Both the position numbers and the translations under genes were made by a program. Of a stretch of 64,000 nt of DNA, positions 8,438-61,927 are shown piece after piece. The DNA is from Fundicoccus culcitae (lineage in GTDB: Bacteria > Bacillota > Bacilli > Lactobacillales > Aerococcaceae), in assembly GCF_024661895.1 (NCBI RefSeq), contig NZ_CP102453.1, positions 2,914,001-2,978,000 of the forward strand, written 5' to 3'. Position 1 is the first letter of the stretch, and each line of letters starts with the position of its first letter. Below the pieces are notes generated by a model. That model saw nothing but the letters and a program-made list of their open reading frames with translations. It was not told the DNA's origin and ran no database searches.

Positions 8438-8451
8438 TAAATATCACTGCC
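8438..8451 (+). repeat. TAAATATCACTGCC motif after gatB
   Basis: Fourteen-base motif two bases after the gatB stop. The same sequence occurs at 63731 after glmS, and 13 of 14 bases at 48788 after the second ABC gene. Role unknown. Confidence 0.45.
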
Positions 8452-8452
8452 T

Positions 8453-8488
8453 AATAGCCGGTACTTATGTGCGTAAGTACCGGCTATT
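8453..8488. repeat. Left flanking palindrome of the 8.5-kb array
   Basis: Perfect inverted repeat with 15-base arms (AATAGCCGGTACTTA and its complement) around a six-base loop. A loose T-run (CTGTTTTT) lies about 5-10 bases downstream, so it may also act as a weak terminator for gatB. The first eleven bases of the arm recur in the palindrome at 8725, and GCCTAATAGCCGGTA precedes both. Confidence 0.8.
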
Positions 8489-8509
8489 CGCTGTTTTTAG
8501 TATATATTT

Positions 8510-8677
8510 GCCAAACGCATATAGCGTTTATGGATTTCGCTATACGCGATTGCCAAACGCATATAGCGTTTATGGATTTCGCTATACGCGATTGCCAAAC
8601 GCATATAGCGTTTATGGATTTCGCTATACGCGATTGCCAAACGCATATAGCGTTTATGTATTTCGCTATATGCGATT
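8510..8677. repeat. Four tandem 42-bp palindromic units
   Basis: Units start at 8510, 8552, 8594 and 8636 with no gap. Each contains CGCATATAGCG, an 11-base loop (TTTATGGATTT) and CGCTATACGCG. Units 1-3 are identical; in each, one arm pair is A-C on the plus strand but G-U on the minus strand. Unit 4 has CGCTATATGCG, an exact complement, plus one loop change. The block fills most of the 430-base gap between gatB and the L,D-transpeptidase. Overlapping open frames here follow the repeat on both strands and are not genes. Confidence 0.9.
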
Positions 8678-8724
8678 GCCAACCCAACCTCCGTTTGACA
8701 GCCGTTCACTTGCCACTTACGCCT

Positions 8725-8760
8725 AATAGCCGGTATTTAAGCTTTTATGGACCGGCTATT
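8725..8760. repeat. Right flanking palindrome of the 8.5-kb array
   Basis: Inverted repeat with ten-base arms AATAGCCGGT / ACCGGCTATT, related to the palindrome at 8453, so the two bracket the array. The box CTTGCCACTTA at 8709-8719 sits just to its left. No T-run follows. Confidence 0.75.
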
Positions 8761-24764: not shown

Positions 24765-24784
24765 TGTGATGTTCTGTTTGCTAC

Positions 24785-24935
24785 AAAAATTCGACCGATG
24801 TGAATTATAGTGGGACCGTCTTCCGCACGGCTCCAGACTCGGCTGGCTACTCAGCCTCTAAAGCCTAAAGGCTTAAGAGGCTGATGTGTGCCAGTCCGTC
24901 CTTTACACTATAATTAACATCGGTCGATTTTTTTT
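24785..24935 (+). terminator. Long structured terminator, GGACCGTC family (element A)
   Basis: Outer stem 24792-24812 pairs with 24906-24926 at 20 of 21 positions, followed by eight T. Inside: GTGGGACCGTCTTCCGCACGG, then a second stem (TCAGCCTCT...AGAGGCTGA, with AAGCC/GGCTT inside it), then GTGTGCCAGTCCGTCC. It follows map. A copy of the core lies inverted at 25076. Together the two fill most of the 500-base gap between the convergent genes map and galU; nothing coding was seen there. Confidence 0.8.
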
Positions 24936-25075
24936 CGCTCACAAAGCTGAGAATTGAGAAATAAGTTGCGATTAGTCAAATTACCAAGGCTTCACTCGTT
25001 GAGGTCATTTCTGAAATAGGATGATCTGTGTTGATTCAAAAGGCTCAACGTAGCCTATACTTAAAAATTTAAGCG

Positions 25076-25231
25076 CAAAAAATCCAACCGTTTTTTAAAT
25101 AATAGTGACCAGGACGGACCGGCACACATCGCTCCTTTAGAGGCTCTGCCTCTTAGGGAGCGAGTAGCCGGCCGAGTCTGGAGCCGTGCGGAAGACGGTC
25201 CCACTATCATTTAAAAAACGGTCGGATTTTT
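25076..25231 (-). terminator. Long structured terminator, GGACCGTC family, inverted (element B)
   Basis: Outer stem 25083-25107 pairs with 25202-25226 over most positions. A-run on the left and T-run on the right make it usable in both directions; read on the minus strand it lies downstream of galU. Its core (25164-25206, minus strand) matches element A with one mismatch in about 45 bases, while outer stem and inner hairpin (GCTCC..AGAGGC / GCCTCT..GGGAGC) have different sequences that still pair. Confidence 0.8.
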
Positions 25232-25267
25232 GAAGCGACACCTAAGCTCTCTTACTCTTAAGCATTC

Positions 25268-34379: not shown

Positions 34380-34540
34380 GCTGGTTTAACTTAATTCAAC
34401 GCGTTAAAAGGTAAGCGGGAAGTAACAGACTGGTGATTGGATAAGTTGCGTCTGATAATTTGATTTGCCGGCTTTCGATGGGAAAAGAAAGCCGGCAAGT
34501 GGGTTAAGCAGAAATAGTTAAATGGCGCGCCCCAATCCCC
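34380..34540. other. Left part of the 850-base gap after the LCP gene
   Basis: No coding signal. Contains an inverted copy of the array box (TAAGCGGGAAG, 34412-34422) and a perfect 12-base palindrome TTGCCGGCTTTC / GAAAGCCGGCAA (34465-34498) without a T-run. Confidence 0.6.
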
Positions 34541-34745
34541 CGCCAAACGGTGTCTCATTTGGCGTTCACTCGTGAACCCCCCGCCAAATGGTGTCTCATT
34601 TGGCGTTCACTCGTGAAGCCTCCGCCAAATGGCGTCTCATTTGGCGTTCACTCGTGAACCCCCCGCCAAACGGTGTCTCATTTGGCGTTCACTCGTGAAG
34701 CCCCCGCCAAATGGCGTCTCATTTGGCGTTCGCCTCGGTGGTGAG
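34541..34745. repeat. Five tandem 41-bp palindromic units
   Basis: Units begin at 34541, 34582, 34623, 34664 and 34705, exactly 41 bases apart. Each has a stem CGCCAAAYG / CATTTGGCG with a short GYGTCT loop; units 1-4 continue with TTCACTCGTGAA, a second small palindrome, then a C-run. Variation is limited to a few positions. The fifth unit diverges after its stem (TTCGCCTCGGTGG). Confidence 0.9.
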
Positions 34746-34972
34746 GAAGAATATGAGCTTCAAGTAAGTGATTGTCAGTCTACGATGGTCTAACTATGAA
34801 GGAAATTCATGATAATTATTAGGCAAATGTTTATTCGGGTCATTACTCTGTTAGCAGTGGCCAGATTAAGCATCTTAAACGAGAGATTTCTGAAAAAATA
34901 TCGCAATGATGTGATTCATCGAAGAGGATCAGCCTATTATCATATTGAGTATGGCAGACATCCGTTCGTTCA

Positions 34973-34983
34973 CTTCCCACTTA
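34973..34983 (+). repeat. CTTCCCACTTA box
   Basis: Copy of the box found near the arrays at 8709 and 58419-58709; an inverted copy lies at 34412-34422, so the two bracket the 41-bp array. Confidence 0.5.
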
Positions 34984-35014
34984 TGTTAAAAGCTACAATT
35001 TCAAGCGGAAAAGC

Positions 35015-49886: not shown

Positions 49887-50137
49887 TCGAATGTTGTGAG
49901 CAACCATTCGCCTCTAGGCTTTTTCCCAGGATTCCAGGCAGATTGTTCTACGAGGAAAGTGAAGAACAGGATTTCTATATTTAATTATTAGTCATCTCGG
50001 CTAATACACCTTCAAATGAATAAAAGGCGGAAATGAATTTTGATTCATTTCCGCCTAAGTTTGTTTGCTTACAAATGTCTGAACTTAAAATACGATTAAT
50101 TACTTTATACTTAGTGATAAGTAACTTTTTTGCCAAA
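49887..50137. other. Left part of the 900-base gap before the secreted acidic protein
   Basis: No gene seen. A bulged palindrome CGAATG..CATTCG (49888-49910) lies right after the peptidase stop. Confidence 0.5.
50025..50062 (+). terminator. Hairpin after the M42 peptidase gene
   Basis: AGGCGGAAATGAA / TTCATTTCCGCCT stem followed by AAGTTTGTTTG, a weak T-run. Possible terminator about 140 bases after the stop. Confidence 0.6.
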
Positions 50138-50215
50138 AGTTAGCTTCGAATGGTGAACGAAGTAAGAAAGTTAGCTTCGAATGGGGAATGGAGTAAGAAA
50201 GTTAGCTCCGAATAG
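50138..50215. repeat. 31-bp direct repeats with covarying stem
   Basis: Two full 31-base units (50138, 50169) and a partial third beginning AGTTAGCTYCGAAT. The hairpin across the first junction is CGAAG..CTTCG; across the second it is GGAG..CTCC, so both sides changed together. Same period as the adjoining array. Confidence 0.75.
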
Positions 50216-50218
50216 GAA

Positions 50219-50457
50219 ACGAACTATAAAAATGTAGTTCGTTCACTCAACGAACTACAAAAATGTAGTTCGTTTCACCGACGAACTATAAAAATGTAGT
50301 TCGTTCACTCGACGAACTATAAAAATGTAGTTCGTTCACTCGACGAACTATAAAAATGTAGTTCGTTTCACCGACGAACTATAAAAATGTAGTTCGTTCA
50401 CTCAACGAACTATAAAAATGTAGTTCGTTAAAGCAACGAAGTACAAAATGGCATTCG
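50219..50457. repeat. Seven tandem 31-bp palindromic units plus a degenerate eighth
   Basis: Units start every 31 bases from 50219 to 50405. Each is a 24-base hairpin ACGAACTAYA-AAAA-TGTAGTTCGT plus a seven-base spacer: TCACTCA, TTCACCG, TCACTCG, TCACTCG, TTCACCG, TCACTCA, TAAAGCA. The eighth hairpin (50436) is decayed. The string CGTTCACTCG, formed at the hairpin-spacer junction, also occurs in the 41-bp array at 34541. Confidence 0.92.
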
Positions 50458-50794
50458 AAAAGACAGTTAACTGAAGATGAAGTTAGCAGTGAGGAACGCT
50501 CAGAGTAAGAAAGTCCGATATTTCTCCGTCATTAAGTTTCCCCCATGACATTAAACCACAACCCTCTCTTTTTTATGTAAATTCATTAACTTTCTCACAA
50601 AGCAAGAAAATCAGCCATCAATCAAAAGTAACTATACACTCCAAACCACCCAACAACTGTTAGCAAAACCTTAATAAATCAAGCCTCCATAAAGGCTAAT
50701 AGTCATAATATTGTATTTTAGTTTTATGATTAGTTATAATAGGGCTAGGCATTTCATTATATGAAGTGCAATCAATTAAAAAGGAGAGTTAAGA
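50458..50794. other. Leader region of the secreted acidic protein
   Basis: About 335 bases without a gene or strong hairpin. A likely -10 (TTATAATAGG) lies near 50735, 60 bases before the start codon. Confidence 0.4.
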
Positions 50795-56062: not shown

Positions 56063-57901
56063 ATGGCTGAAAAGTACAACCAACTAGCTGATCAAATTGT
56101 TGAATTAGTCGGCGGTAAAGAAAATGTTGTTAGCTTATATCACTGTATCACACGCTTACGATTTAAATTGAAGGACGAGTCAATTGCTGCGAAAAATGAA
56201 AACGAAATCAAGAAACTTAATGGTGTGCTTTCAGTCGCCCAAGCCAATAATCAATATCAAGTGATTATTGGCAATGAAGTCGATAAAGTATATGCAGCGA
56301 TTGATCAAAAATATAAATTCCCTAACCCTGTATCAGCCGGAGAATCCGCAGGACAAAGTGAAGAAGCGGAAGAAAAAGGGAATATTGTTATTCGCTTCCT
56401 AAATACATTAACAGCGATATTTAATCCGATTATTATGCCTTTAGCTGGGGCGGGGATGATCAAAGCGCTGTTGGTTTTATTAACCACCTTTGATTTGATG
56501 AGTACCGAATCGGCGACTTACGGTATTTTGTCAGCCGCAGGGAATAGTGTGTTTTATTTCTTACCCTTATTCTTAGCAGTGAGTGCGGCACGCGTTTTTA
56601 AAGCCAATCCATTCATTTCATTAGCGATTGTAGCAGCACTAATGGAGCCAAACTTCACTAACTTAATTACGGAAACAGGGGTTCGAGTGTCATTCTTGGG
56701 CATTCCAACCGTCTTAATGAGTTATACGGGAACAGTTATTCCTTCAATTATTGCTATTTTCATTTATTCTTACTTGGAAAGATGGTTGAAAACTTGGATT
56801 CCTAAGAGTTTAGAAATTTTCTTATTACCGATGATTTCATTGTTAATTATGGTGCCATTAACGGTCATCGTTCTGGGACCAATTGGTGTTACGTTAGGTA
56901 ATGGTTTAGGTGATGTGATTAATTTTATCTCAGCCCGCAGTGGGTTATTAGCTGGATTTATTATTGGTGGCTTCTGGTCTTTATTAGTTATGGTGGGCGT
57001 TCACTGGGGTGTTGTGCCAATCATGATCAACAATATTGCCACTTATGGTTATGACGTCATTCGTCCAATGATTGCTGCCGCAACCTTTGCGAGTGCTGGA
57101 GCTGCCTTAGGTGTCTACTTTAGAGCTAAAAAGCCTGAAACAAAATCATTAGCCCTTTCTTCAATGGTCCCTGCTTTATTGGGTGGTATTACGGAACCTA
57201 TCGTTTATGGTATTTCGATTAAATACAAGAAACCACTCTATGCCCAAATTATTGGTGGGGGTATAGCCGGTGCTTTTATGGGAATGATGCAAACCAAGGC
57301 AATTGTCTATGTTTTCCCTGCCTTAACAACCTTGCCAGCCTTTGCTGGTGATACCTTTGTCTATTATATTATTGGAATTTCCATTGCCTTCTTCTTAACC
57401 GCAATCCTAACCTATATTTTTGGGATTGATGAAGACGAAGCTGAAGTCGTTGACGTAACGCCGACGGAGACATTGATAGATGAAAACCCAACAACGCTAA
57501 TCGCACCCATGGCTGGTGAACTAATTTCGATTGAAGCCGTAGATGATCCAGTCTTTTCATCTAAAGCGATGGGTAATGGCTTTGCTGTAAAACCAACCGA
57601 TGGCAAAGTGGTTGCCCCTATCACAGGTAAAGTCTCAGCCGTCTTTCCAACCAAACACGCGTTTGGGATTGTCTCAGATACCGGTATAGAAGTGTTAGTG
57701 CATATTGGCATTAACACCGTTGAATTAGATGGTAAAGGCTTCGATATCCGTATCCAGCCAGATGATTACGTCGATAAAGGTCAAGTTGTCGGTCAAGTCG
57801 ATTTGAGCGTCCTCAAAGAAAACAACTACGACACCACCACCATGGTTGTTATCACCAATTCAAATGACAACCCCGACTACACCTTACCCCCAACCCCTTA
57901 A
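56063..57901 (+). CDS. bglP: Beta-glucoside PTS permease, EIIBCA (BglP-type)
   Basis: Imports and phosphorylates beta-glucosides. 612 residues: EIIB domain with the phosphocysteine in LYHCITRLRFKL (near residue 28), EIIC membrane domain (about 105-460, with LGGITEPIVYGI) and C-terminal EIIA with the histidine in VLVHIGINTVELDG. Order B-C-A is typical. ATG behind TAGGAG. Works with the two GH1 enzymes, which hydrolyse the imported phosphosugar. Confidence 0.94.
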   Translation: MAEKYNQLADQIVELVGGKENVVSLYHCITRLRFKLKDESIAAKNENEIKKLNGVLSVAQANNQYQVIIGNEVDKVYAAIDQKYKFPNPVSAGESAGQSEEAEEKGNIVIRFLNTLTAIFNPIIMPLAGAGMIKALLVLLTTFDLMSTESATYGILSAAGNSVFYFLPLFLAVSAARVFKANPFISLAIVAALMEPNFTNLITETGVRVSFLGIPTVLMSYTGTVIPSIIAIFIYSYLERWLKTWIPKSLEIFLLPMISLLIMVPLTVIVLGPIGVTLGNGLGDVINFISARSGLLAGFIIGGFWSLLVMVGVHWGVVPIMINNIATYGYDVIRPMIAAATFASAGAALGVYFRAKKPETKSLALSSMVPALLGGITEPIVYGISIKYKKPLYAQIIGGGIAGAFMGMMQTKAIVYVFPALTTLPAFAGDTFVYYIIGISIAFFLTAILTYIFGIDEDEAEVVDVTPTETLIDENPTTLIAPMAGELISIEAVDDPVFSSKAMGNGFAVKPTDGKVVAPITGKVSAVFPTKHAFGIVSDTGIEVLVHIGINTVELDGKGFDIRIQPDDYVDKGQVVGQVDLSVLKENNYDTTTMVVITNSNDNPDYTLPPTP

Positions 57902-57920
57902 ATAAATACCTCTGCTACAG

Positions 57921-57951
57921 CTGGACTAGAAAAAATCTAGTCCAGTTTTTT
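57921..57951 (+). terminator. Terminator after bglP
   Basis: CTGGACTAGA / TCTAGTCCAG, loop AAAAA, six T. Confidence 0.9.
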
Positions 57952-58197
57952 AGTCTAGTGAGAAGGCAACAATAGTGATTCTCTTCGATGAATCATCACA
58001 ACTTGATATATTTGCAGAAAGCTCTAATAAAAAAGATTAATCAAGCTCCTACTAACCGAGCAATGACCCAAATAAAGCTAATCTGTCATCTGCGTAATGC
58101 GCAAAAGACAGAATAGAGCTATTCAGGACACCGCTAAAAGAATAATGGTCTGATTAAACATTAAGTAGAGAGTGACGGACCGTTTCCTATTTACGAT
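57952..58197. other. Left part of the 1-kb gap after bglP
   Basis: No gene. Contains a decayed copy (58077-58119: TCTGTC..GACAGA stem after AATAAAGCTAATC) of the hairpin repeated at 58350 and 58628. Confidence 0.5.
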
Positions 58198-58279
58198 AAG
58201 TGGAATATTCTAGGTAGGTTAGTTCCACTTAGGTCTACAAGTGGAATATTCCGGTTGAGTTGGTTCCACATAATCAGCC
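58198..58279. repeat. Two 41-bp palindromic units (AAGTGGAA stems)
   Basis: AAGTGGAA...TTCCACTT at 58198-58230 and AAGTGGAA...TTCCACAT at 58239-58271; start-to-start distance 41 bases. Both contain GGAATATTC. Confidence 0.75.
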
Positions 58280-58349
58280 TTTTATCGCATTGATATATCG
58301 CAAGCAACAACCCGTCGTTGTAAGCGGATGTGAAAGGCAGCCGAATAAA

Positions 58350-58390
58350 GCTAATCGGTCATCAAACACCTGATTTTATGACCGATTAGC
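58350..58390. repeat. 13-bp-stem hairpin, first copy
   Basis: GCTAATCGGTCAT / ATGACCGATTAGC with a 15-base loop. The same 41-base sequence occurs at 58628, with some similarity in the flanks. No strong T-run. Confidence 0.85.
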
Positions 58391-58429
58391 CTAATTTGTA
58401 GTTTATTTATGGTACACATTTCCCGCTTA

Positions 58430-58511
58430 GGTTCGCGCTCACAACAAACGCTTCAATATGTGTGCGCTCAGGTTCGCGCACACAACAAACTCACCAATAT
58501 GTGTGCGCTCA
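58430..58511. repeat. Two 41-bp palindromic units (GCGCACACA stems)
   Basis: Units at 58430 and 58471. The second pairs GCGCACACA with TGTGTGCGC; the first has one mismatch. TTTCCCGCTTA (58419-58429) lies directly before the first unit. Confidence 0.8.
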
Positions 58512-58549
58512 CGTAAGTGAGAAAGACGGTTCTTCATTTCCCACTTACG
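58512..58549. repeat. Palindrome made of two opposed array boxes
   Basis: CGTAAGTGAGAAA (58512-58524) faces TTTCCCACTTACG (58537-58549): 13-base arms with one mismatch. Another direct copy of the box lies at 58616, and TTCTTCATTTCCCACTTA occurs twice (58530, 58609). Confidence 0.75.
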
Positions 58550-58627
58550 CTGCACCAGCACACGACAATTTCAATTTAATCTGTCTCGCGGTGGGTATGT
58601 GTATAGAATTCTTCATTTCCCACTTAA

Positions 58628-58668
58628 GCTAATCGGTCATCAAACACCTGATTTTATGACCGATTAGC
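58628..58668. repeat. 13-bp-stem hairpin, second copy
   Basis: Identical to 58350-58390, 278 bases downstream, in the same orientation. Confidence 0.85.
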
Positions 58669-58709
58669 CTTATTTGTAGTCTGATTTACGGTAATACGTT
58701 TTCCGCTTA

Positions 58710-58951
58710 CCCCCAACCGCCAGAGAACAAGCTGAGAGGCGGATGGCAAAGAGAAACCTAAGCTTAATAAATTTTGATGAGCTCCCAAATTACTTAATCA
58801 GTGAATGGGATGTATATTGTTATCAATTACGAAAAAAAAATAAGAAAAATGTAGGAATTATAACAACCTTTCTTTCACTTATGTTATAATGCAAAAGGAT
58901 AGATTTATGATGTAAATCATAAAATGAACGCAAACAGAAAGAGGATAAGTG
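58710..58951. other. Right part of the gap, leader of ntdP
   Basis: No gene or strong hairpin. An extended -10 element TGTTATAAT lies at 58882-58890, about 60 bases before the ntdP start. Confidence 0.5.
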
Positions 58952-59503
58952 ATGAAGCAACCTAGAGAGGGTGAATTCATCACTATTAAAAGTTATAAAC
59001 ACGATGGGTCATTACATCGAACTTGGCGCGATAATATGGTGCTGAAAACAAGTGACCAATCAATTATTGGTTGTAATGATCATACTTTAGTAACTGAAGC
59101 AGATGGGCGAAGATGGGTAACAAGAGAAGTGGCGCTAATGTATTTTCATAAACATTTTTGGTTTAATGTTGTGGCTATGATACGTAAAAGAGGCGTGACT
59201 TACTATTGTAATCTAGCATCTCCTTATTTAATCGATAATGAAGCTTTAAAATATATTGATTATGATTTAGATATTAAAGTATTTCCTGATGGGGAAAAAC
59301 GTTTACTCGATGTTGATGAATATGAAATTCATGGTAAAAAATACCATTATCCAGATGAAATAGACCCCATTCTAAAATATAATATTCAAGAACTTGTTCG
59401 ATGGATAGATGAGAAAAAAGGGCCATTCGCTCCGGAGTTTGTTAATATTTGGTATGAACGCTATATACAATTGACTCATCGCAAAAAGCATAAACATAAC
59501 TAG
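58952..59503 (+). CDS. ntdP: Nucleoside tri/diphosphate phosphatase (DUF402)
   Basis: DUF402/UPF0374 protein; the staphylococcal homologue hydrolyses nucleoside di- and triphosphates. 183 residues with the very conserved N-terminus [55 protein letters not shown] and the metal-site segment [25 protein letters not shown]. The ATG at 58952 is preferred over GTG 58949; GAGGA lies upstream. Single gene with terminator. Confidence 0.93.
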
Positions 59504-61708: not shown

Positions 61709-61744
61709 GTAAAGTGCTTTTAGAAAATTTAAGAAGGAGAAAAA

Positions 61745-61882
61745 AATGGATAGCGCCTGGCCTTATGAAAATAAGGTGACGAGGATTGGGCTTATCGAAA
61801 GATTCGGCGGATGGCTCAAGGTTGTGCAACCTTAAGAAAAGGGATAAAAATTATATGCAAATATAAAACAGAAACCTTTTCA
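61745..61882 (+). ncRNA. glmS glucosamine-6-phosphate ribozyme
   Basis: Self-cleaving riboswitch in the glmS leader. Conserved parts in order: AGCGCC (cleavage expected between A61752 and G61753), P1 hairpin CCTTAT-GAAA-ATAAGG, TGACGAGG, TTATCGAAAGATTCGGCGGATG, the GGTTGTGCAACC hairpin, and a P4-like pairing AAAAGGG with CCTTTTC. In the known family glucosamine-6-phosphate acts as cofactor, cleavage exposes a 5' hydroxyl and the mRNA is degraded. Position and sequence leave little doubt; the exact 3' end is approximate. Confidence 0.95.
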
Positions 61883-61927
61883 GCACCTAGAAGCGACATT
61901 AAATACACGAAAAGAGGAATTGGATAC

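Follow-up and report, generated by a model that had tools for sequence, protein, structure and literature searches.

A palindrome mosaic upstream of ntdP in Fundicoccus culcitae as a probable decayed composite of IS66-type miniature elements

The gap between a beta-glucoside PTS gene and ntdP in Fundicoccus culcitae is very probably a decayed composite of non-autonomous IS66-type elements (MITEs), with a modular build like that of BOX elements. The gap was examined within a 64,000-nucleotide stretch of the genome, here called the window; interval coordinates are those of the window, and elements elsewhere are named by their genome position. At least eight dispersed palindromic modules are patched together in the interval, 57976-58753. 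The elements from which it appears to derive would consist of a terminal inverted repeat, GTAAGYGGGAAGTGA, followed by interchangeable palindromic modules, some of them in head-to-tail arrays with a fixed unit of 40-43 bp.

What does the interval contain? The original prediction was of mixed palindromes in this one gap, and all of them lie where it placed them, in a mosaic larger than it claimed, with modules P, U, R, M and E in addition to those it listed. The upstream gene encodes a beta-glucoside PTS IIABC protein (56063-57901; TIGR01995 at 684 bits), and the downstream gene is ntdP (58949-59503; 281.4 bits with the NtdP model, against a cut-off of 280). The left edge of the tolerant gap is marked by a terminator-like hairpin of the PTS gene (57919-57947, + strand); one was found against a shuffle mean of 0.8, so the count alone is not above chance. 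From left to right, the modules are U, P, B, a weak P-like segment (66%), a degenerate terminal hairpin, I, I, R, H, Hr, A, A, RE, M, a remnant of an end, H, Hr and E, with identities to consensus of 66-85% except for H, at 93%. The decayed U module (57976-58022, − strand, 77%) aligns to elements at 2948411, 1703089 and 37512. It is followed by a P palindrome unit (58034-58071, −, 74%), a single B unit (58072-58112, +, 80% to the B consensus) and a degenerate terminal-repeat hairpin, TTAAGTAGAGAGTGACGGACCG...TTTCCTATTTACGA (58161-58196), recognised by eye against the terminal repeat GTAAGTGGGAAGTGACGGACCG. The B unit had been taken for a decayed third copy of the H hairpin; its first ~15 bases do match that hairpin, and the remainder is B sequence. 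The B and H consensus sequences are 63% identical, with shuffles reaching at most 51%, which indicates distant kinship. Two I units, AAGTGGAA...TTCCACTT, occupy 58195-58235 and 58236-58276 (both +, matched in the module library); their AAGTGGAA motifs start at 58198 and 58239, 41 bp apart as predicted. An R module (58280-58312, +; 84% identical to the element at 2143887 over 58272-58427) and a diverged inner terminal repeat, GTAAGCGGATGTGAAAGGCAGCCG (58320-58343, +, found by alignment to other copies), lead to the first H hairpin (58350-58390). The second (58628-58668) is identical over all 41 bases and lies 278 bases away, again as predicted, and both sit within a 62-bp repeat whose copies are 94% identical. 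Between the hairpins are the Hr segment of an A-type element (58392-58430, +, 69%), two 41-bp A units (58437-58477 and 58478-58518, both −), the RE terminal hairpin with ends TTCATTTCCCACTTACG (58512-58549, +), a single M unit (58550-58590, −, 68%) and a terminal-repeat remnant, TTCTTCATTTCCCACTTAA (58609-58627, −). The RE hairpin is the box palindrome of the original prediction, and the two GCGCWCACA units that it described are present, 41 apart, in a direct repeat starting at 58424 and 58465. Beyond the second H hairpin lie the right end of the outer I-I-R-H element, ...TTTTCCGCTTAC (58669-58710, +), and a single E unit (58714-58753, −, 80%). A 13-base identity, CTTACCCCCAACC, is shared by the end of the PTS gene (57883-57895) and the right edge of the mosaic (58706-58718), probably by chance. 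Over the whole window, raw hairpin hits number 93, compared with 12 and 11 in two mononucleotide shuffles.

These modules are abundant in their own genome and nearly absent from others. A search with 58050-58720 returned 191 matches in the genome itself (Aerococcaceae; 3,224,940 bases in one contig), many with E below 1e-30, and matched one other genome of the 60 searched (own included), marginally (E 0.0097). The genus is represented among these by this single strain, and the nearest named genomes by NtdP are Abiotrophia, Globicatella and other Aerococcaceae. Elsewhere in the genome, the interval's modules occur between inverted GTAAGYGGGAAGTGA ends. Sites within one mismatch of GTAAGYGGGAAGTGA number 187 (92 forward, 95 reverse), as against 1 for the reversed control. 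Among 296 genomes (own included), 50 have any such site, the highest count outside the own genome being 12 (in G218) and the next 3; the reversed control also gives scattered single sites in other genomes. The sites in G218 flank six IS66 copies, and the transposase of these copies shares 37% identity with the type-1 transposase described below.

Target duplications accompany the ends. Among 509 end pairs in the merged DNA of the genome (at most 4 mismatches per end and 6 per pair), an exact duplication of 7 bp was found in 18 and of 8 bp in 3, and lengths of 4, 5 and 6 bp were each seen once. Re-pairing the flanks gave duplications of at least 7 bp in a mean of 1.5 and a maximum of 6 cases. 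The 18 pairs with exact 7-bp duplications include two IS copies, one IS-bearing element and one alternative pairing. A separate list of 26 element rows was reduced to 18 by setting aside one alternative pairing and five rows with imperfect or 6-bp duplications, and by moving two type-1 IS copies. It comprises 17 IS-free elements and the IS-bearing element at 1418087, all with exact 7- or 8-bp duplications and partly drawn from loci fetched for their match to the interval; the element at 2391095 is nested in that at 2390983. Three insertions have 8-bp instead of 7-bp duplications, a point against the reading as IS66-type elements. The 17 elements are 234-890 bp long and their longest closed ORF is 84 aa, compared with 553-571 aa for the transposases, so they contain no transposase gene. 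Their terminal repeat in common with a type-1 IS66, their target duplications (in the 17 elements elsewhere) and the missing transposase gene identify them as MITEs. For example, a complete 574-bp element in the window (34411-34984, +) has terminal repeats, five D units, P and U, with an 8-bp duplication, GTTAAAAG, on both sides. A target duplication was also looked for at the interval itself, and none was found. A candidate IS66 with array cargo at 1418087-1420715 was rejected, since the IS there is of type 2 and has inserted into the N array of a miniature element; a 254-bp element at 999521 is of the same kind as this host element, without the IS. The window also holds a different inverted-repeat element (24775-25232; arms with GGACCGTCTTCC and AAAATCCAACCG), which looks like a sequence at 1380-1490 of locus L015.

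The genome encodes nine IS66 transposases without internal stops, and these fall into three types. Two identical 2286-bp copies make up type 1, with ends GTAAGTGGGAAGTGACGG and a 7-bp duplication in both; type 2 (2244 bp, four identical copies) has ends GTACGCGCCTAATA and an 8-bp duplication; type 3 (~2253 bp, three copies) has ends (G)TAAGCGCCCAATAG and an 8-bp duplication. Only type 1 matches both the ends and the usual duplication length of the miniature elements, and because of this match they look like IS66-mobilised, BOX-like miniature elements. The type-1 transposase has the domains PF03050 (7e-75), PF13817 (IS66 C-terminal element) and PF13005 (zf-IS66). The available text of PMC3916326 describes 8-bp duplications for IS66 and ISPsy5, a rule that type 1 breaks; the paper says “generally,” so membership in IS66 by transposase stands. 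An IS66 element of S. mitis, ISSmi4, is named in the available text of PMC2828477, with no target duplication seen. IS66 is present in 17 of 75 other genomes of the family, so the transposon alone does not account for the burst. A plasmid collection searched with the A-type element and the type-1 IS matched neither. A quite different source would be a RAYT, a Y1 tyrosine transposase, dispersing the units as REP/BIME sequences. Short, clustered, intergenic palindromes are what such a system would leave. However, Y1_Tnp (PF01797) has no match in the genome, with 5 of 14 control genomes positive, and the terminal repeats are of the DDE type with 7-bp duplications, making a RAYT origin extremely improbable.

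How, then, was the interval assembled? Two elements elsewhere suggest an answer. The first, at 2143887-2144213, is a 327-bp I-I-R-H element with the duplication ATTGGCG, and it aligns with 58198-58278 (85%), 58272-58427 (84%) and 58626-58710 (88%, at its right end; the element at 1703089 gives 87% here). The second lies at 821855 and is of the A type; no exact duplication was found around it, and it can be aligned to 58344-58511 (89%) and 58429-58549 (84%). From these alignments, the interval seems best read as an older I-I-R-H element into which an A-type block and an M unit would have entered by way of the H hairpin. The A-type block lacks its usual outer end there, which makes recombination between H modules likelier than a fresh insertion. 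Moreover, the H hairpins point to recent duplication or conversion: the two here agree at all 41 bases, and those of the compared elements differ. The U and P modules to the left and the E unit to the right are remains of other elements. The original prediction had proposed repeated arrivals at one tolerant site, and this is partly borne out: transposon-ended elements with target duplications occur elsewhere, elements nest, and insertions are over-represented in palindrome units. In the interval itself, no target duplication was found, arrivals are suggested by alignment, and part of the mosaic looks like H-H recombination instead.

Could the interval instead function as a cis-regulatory region or a structured RNA? 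A transcript of 58060-58760 does fold better than its shuffles (z -6.05, 20 shuffles), and pneumococcal BOX elements can alter nearby expression, according to the available text of PMC3049150. The fold, however, is what a set of palindromes would give, and a terminator-like hairpin stands ahead of the mosaic. A gene or conserved structured RNA spanning the interval was looked for without success; an Rfam search of the window at the gathering score returned a glmS ribozyme at 61741-61891 (RF00234, 97.1 bits; upstream of an ORF resembling glmS by eye) and nothing in the interval. The comparison of ntdP upstream regions that had been suggested as a check argues in the same direction, since 14 named relatives, examined out of 80 loci fetched, have no unit at 70% identity within 1.5 kb upstream of the gene. 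The gap upstream of ntdP is 93-622 bp in the 13 relatives with an upstream ORF called. A regulatory role of this kind is thus very unlikely. A TATAAT-like stretch was seen by eye ahead of ntdP at 58855-58892, and a promoter scan upstream of the gene found no promoter-like site.

The miniature elements and the IS66 copies are found in palindrome units more often than expected. Counting the 18 elements (the 17 IS-free ones and 1418087) and nine IS66 copies, 13 of 27 insertions with exact duplications fall in library palindrome units at one threshold. When the listed elements are left out, such units make up 14.2% of the noncoding DNA sampled (p 3e-5); when their interiors are counted in, the share is 15.9% (p 9e-5). 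Among insertions not chosen by similarity, counted by hand as eight elements in position-chosen stretches and the nine IS66 copies, 9 of 17 are in palindrome units (p 5e-4), and the IS66 copies alone give 5 of 9 (p 0.007). With imperfect duplications included, the count is 9 of 25 elements (p 0.006; 0.011 at the 15.9% baseline), or 12 of 25 by a looser rule. The distribution among gene gaps, with only long ORFs taken as genes, is what tolerated insertions would give: 14 of the 59 convergent gaps contain units, compared with 29 of 238 tandem and 4 of 73 divergent ones (convergent versus the rest, p 0.01).

The cargo of these elements is itself repetitive. Sampling 864 kb of the genome yielded 108 tandem arrays with periods of 20-130, and in 84 of them the basic period is 40-43, or its double or triple; for 60 of the 84, no more than 1 of 20 shuffles reaches the consensus stem. 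For many of the arrays, J, K and G among them, a place within GTAAGYGGGAAGTGA-ended elements is only a possibility. Sixteen seed families compared by consensus show clear kinship for B, B2 and H only (B-B2 0.85, B-H 0.63, B2-H 0.66), with D-N borderline (0.54, against a shuffle maximum of 0.51). Within a family, successive units are spaced almost exactly, at a tolerance of ±3 bases: 41 in 87 of 87 cases for A, 40 in 43 of 43 for E, 40 in 58 of 59 for F and 43 in 50 of 50 for G. Runs of A units, from 1 to 7 in the sampled DNA, have H-Hr and RE as end modules. Identity is higher within arrays than between them in 16 of 16 families (in L1 by only 0.01), and 120 end units have a mean identity of 0.82 versus 0.88 for 217 internal units (p 4e-9), a difference to which adjoining foreign sequence may contribute. 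Internal likeness with diverged end units is the usual mark of slippage or unequal exchange. Long 102-bp arrays of the L family, at L182 8-1243 and L129 7027-7993, have two TTGCCGG...CCGGCAA palindromes at 40 and 62 bp and host several insertions. In the window, about four 42-bp J units (CGCATATAGCG...) at 8449-8760 are flanked by two copies of a palindrome, AATAGCCGGTA...TACCGGCTATT.

These arrays bear on a further suggestion of the original prediction, that the interval is a nursery seeding new array types for the genome. Families forming longer arrays at other loci are indeed represented in the interval, by one or two copies. Yet single units are common in the sampled DNA (for example, 72 single H and 36 single F), the interval's modules other than H are worn, and nothing points to export from it. 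Its units look like ordinary low-copy (1-2) members, and the longer arrays elsewhere look expanded in place; a seeding role is accordingly highly improbable.

Selection on pairing, for a hairpin or cruciform function, might also keep the palindromes. In 15 of 16 families, the stem columns show more conservation than the loops, and five of the 16 (B, C, H, J and K) pair better than every one of 200 shuffles. The other 11 families do not exceed all shuffles, however; in A, E and G, each of the 200 shuffles does at least as well, and relatedness among copies can inflate this covariation test. Compensatory change is not general across families, and selection of this kind is an unlikely account, if less so than the regulatory one. 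A 31-bp K array in the window (50136-50466) has edge-unit stems changed on both arms (CGAAG/CTTCG, GGAGT/GCTCC and CGAACTA/TAGTTCG).

If the interval is a composite of IS66-type miniature elements, its history may have involved four steps; here, movement is deduced from the static sequence of one strain. First, a 571-aa-type IS66 transposase would recognise the ends and move the elements in trans, duplicating 7 (less often 8) bp; the ends and duplications are observed, and they suggest the mobilisation. Second, new copies would land in the palindrome units of older copies above chance, piling up where genes are spared. The enrichment is observed, and its cause could be either transposase preference or survival. 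Third, arrays would gain or lose units in place through slippage or unequal exchange, the signature of which is seen in them. Fourth, common H hairpins would let elements recombine, so that an A-type block (H-Hr-A-A-RE and one M) was joined to the I-I-R-H element, leaving two identical hairpins 278 bp apart, as the alignments suggest. BOX-like repeats are thereby given an explicit candidate transposase, IS66. The habit would be recursive: elements carry palindrome arrays, and palindrome arrays receive elements. This would account for the accumulation of repeat mosaics in the gene-free gaps of one bacterium.

The odd part is that mostly unrelated families have one unit length, ~41 bp here and 51-52 in another genus. 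Noncoding arrays in other genera are few, with periods of 41, 41, 41, 42, 42, 42 and 121 (G017); 26, 42, 42, 119, 119, 120 and 120 (G062); 117 and 120 (G012); 82 (G034); and 51, 52 and 104 (G073). The array scan gave none in G011, G008 and G061. Arrays that lie inside an ORF and have a period divisible by 3, including some of 42 and 51, were treated as coding and left out. The misfits are 26 (G062), 55 (G004, inside an ORF), and 35 and 68, each from one of the 80 named loci; another of those loci has an array of period 119. The palindromic 41-42-bp arrays of G017, which belongs to another genus and also has IS66, are apparently unrelated in sequence (L210 8358-8512, L213 4209-4351 and L216 10592-10705). 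Arrays of 51 bp with ATTCGACAATTT palindromes lie at L235 6757-6872 and L144 7322-7427 (G073 and G004, of one genus). The predominance of 40-43 bp in the genome's own arrays, the mostly unrelated families and the mainly similar noncoding arrays of other genera together raise the idea that Aerococcaceae palindromic arrays follow a common length rule of ~3, 4 or 5 helical turns (31; 40-43; 51-52 bp), with palindromes facing the same side of the helix. The length might be set by common machinery, such as a dimeric or filament-forming protein reading palindrome geometry, or by a copying process, with IS66 ends dispersing the arrays. This is speculation that we consider improbable. Helical phasing of the units is only suggested: just 13 arrays of 25-65 bp in relatives give p about 0.01, for families that may not be independent, and the statistic is trivially strong in the own genome, where most arrays have one length. 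A testable question follows: what counts to 41?

How does this system compare with known ones? No description of these repeats was found in the literature titles and the openings of abstracts. IS66 appears only in a table in the available text of PMC3189936 and PMC9769881, from the literature on IS66 and MITEs, and has no occurrence in a review of prokaryotic MITEs (PMC10969869). First, in layout, the elements resemble BOX of S. pneumoniae and S. suis, as described in the available text of PMC3049150: end modules flank a variable number of tandem middle units, and there are terminal repeats, target duplications, clusters with mutual insertion and an excess between convergent genes. Unlike BOX, the elements here have ends that match IS66, with 7-bp duplications, and many mostly unrelated middle-unit families of one length (40-43 bp), several per element. 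What differs from BOX is the IS66 partner, the many one-length cargo families and the tendency to insert into palindromes. Second, PF03050, PF13005 and PF13817, and the 8-bp duplications of types 2 and 3, conform to the IS66 family (rule in the available text of PMC3916326), whereas 7 bp is the length for type 1 and for most of the miniature elements related to it. Third, clustered intergenic palindromic repeats are shared with REP/BIME sequences and with REPINs and their RAYTs, but here no Y1 transposase was found and tandem 40-43-bp arrays lie partly inside DDE-type terminal repeats. Fourth, insertion into repeated palindromes is already known for IS elements that target REP sequences (IS3, IS110, IS4, IS256 and IS5 families; available text of PMC1525189, in which IS66 does not occur). 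In contrast to those, no single fixed insertion point emerged here, and the targets are themselves carried by IS66-ended elements.
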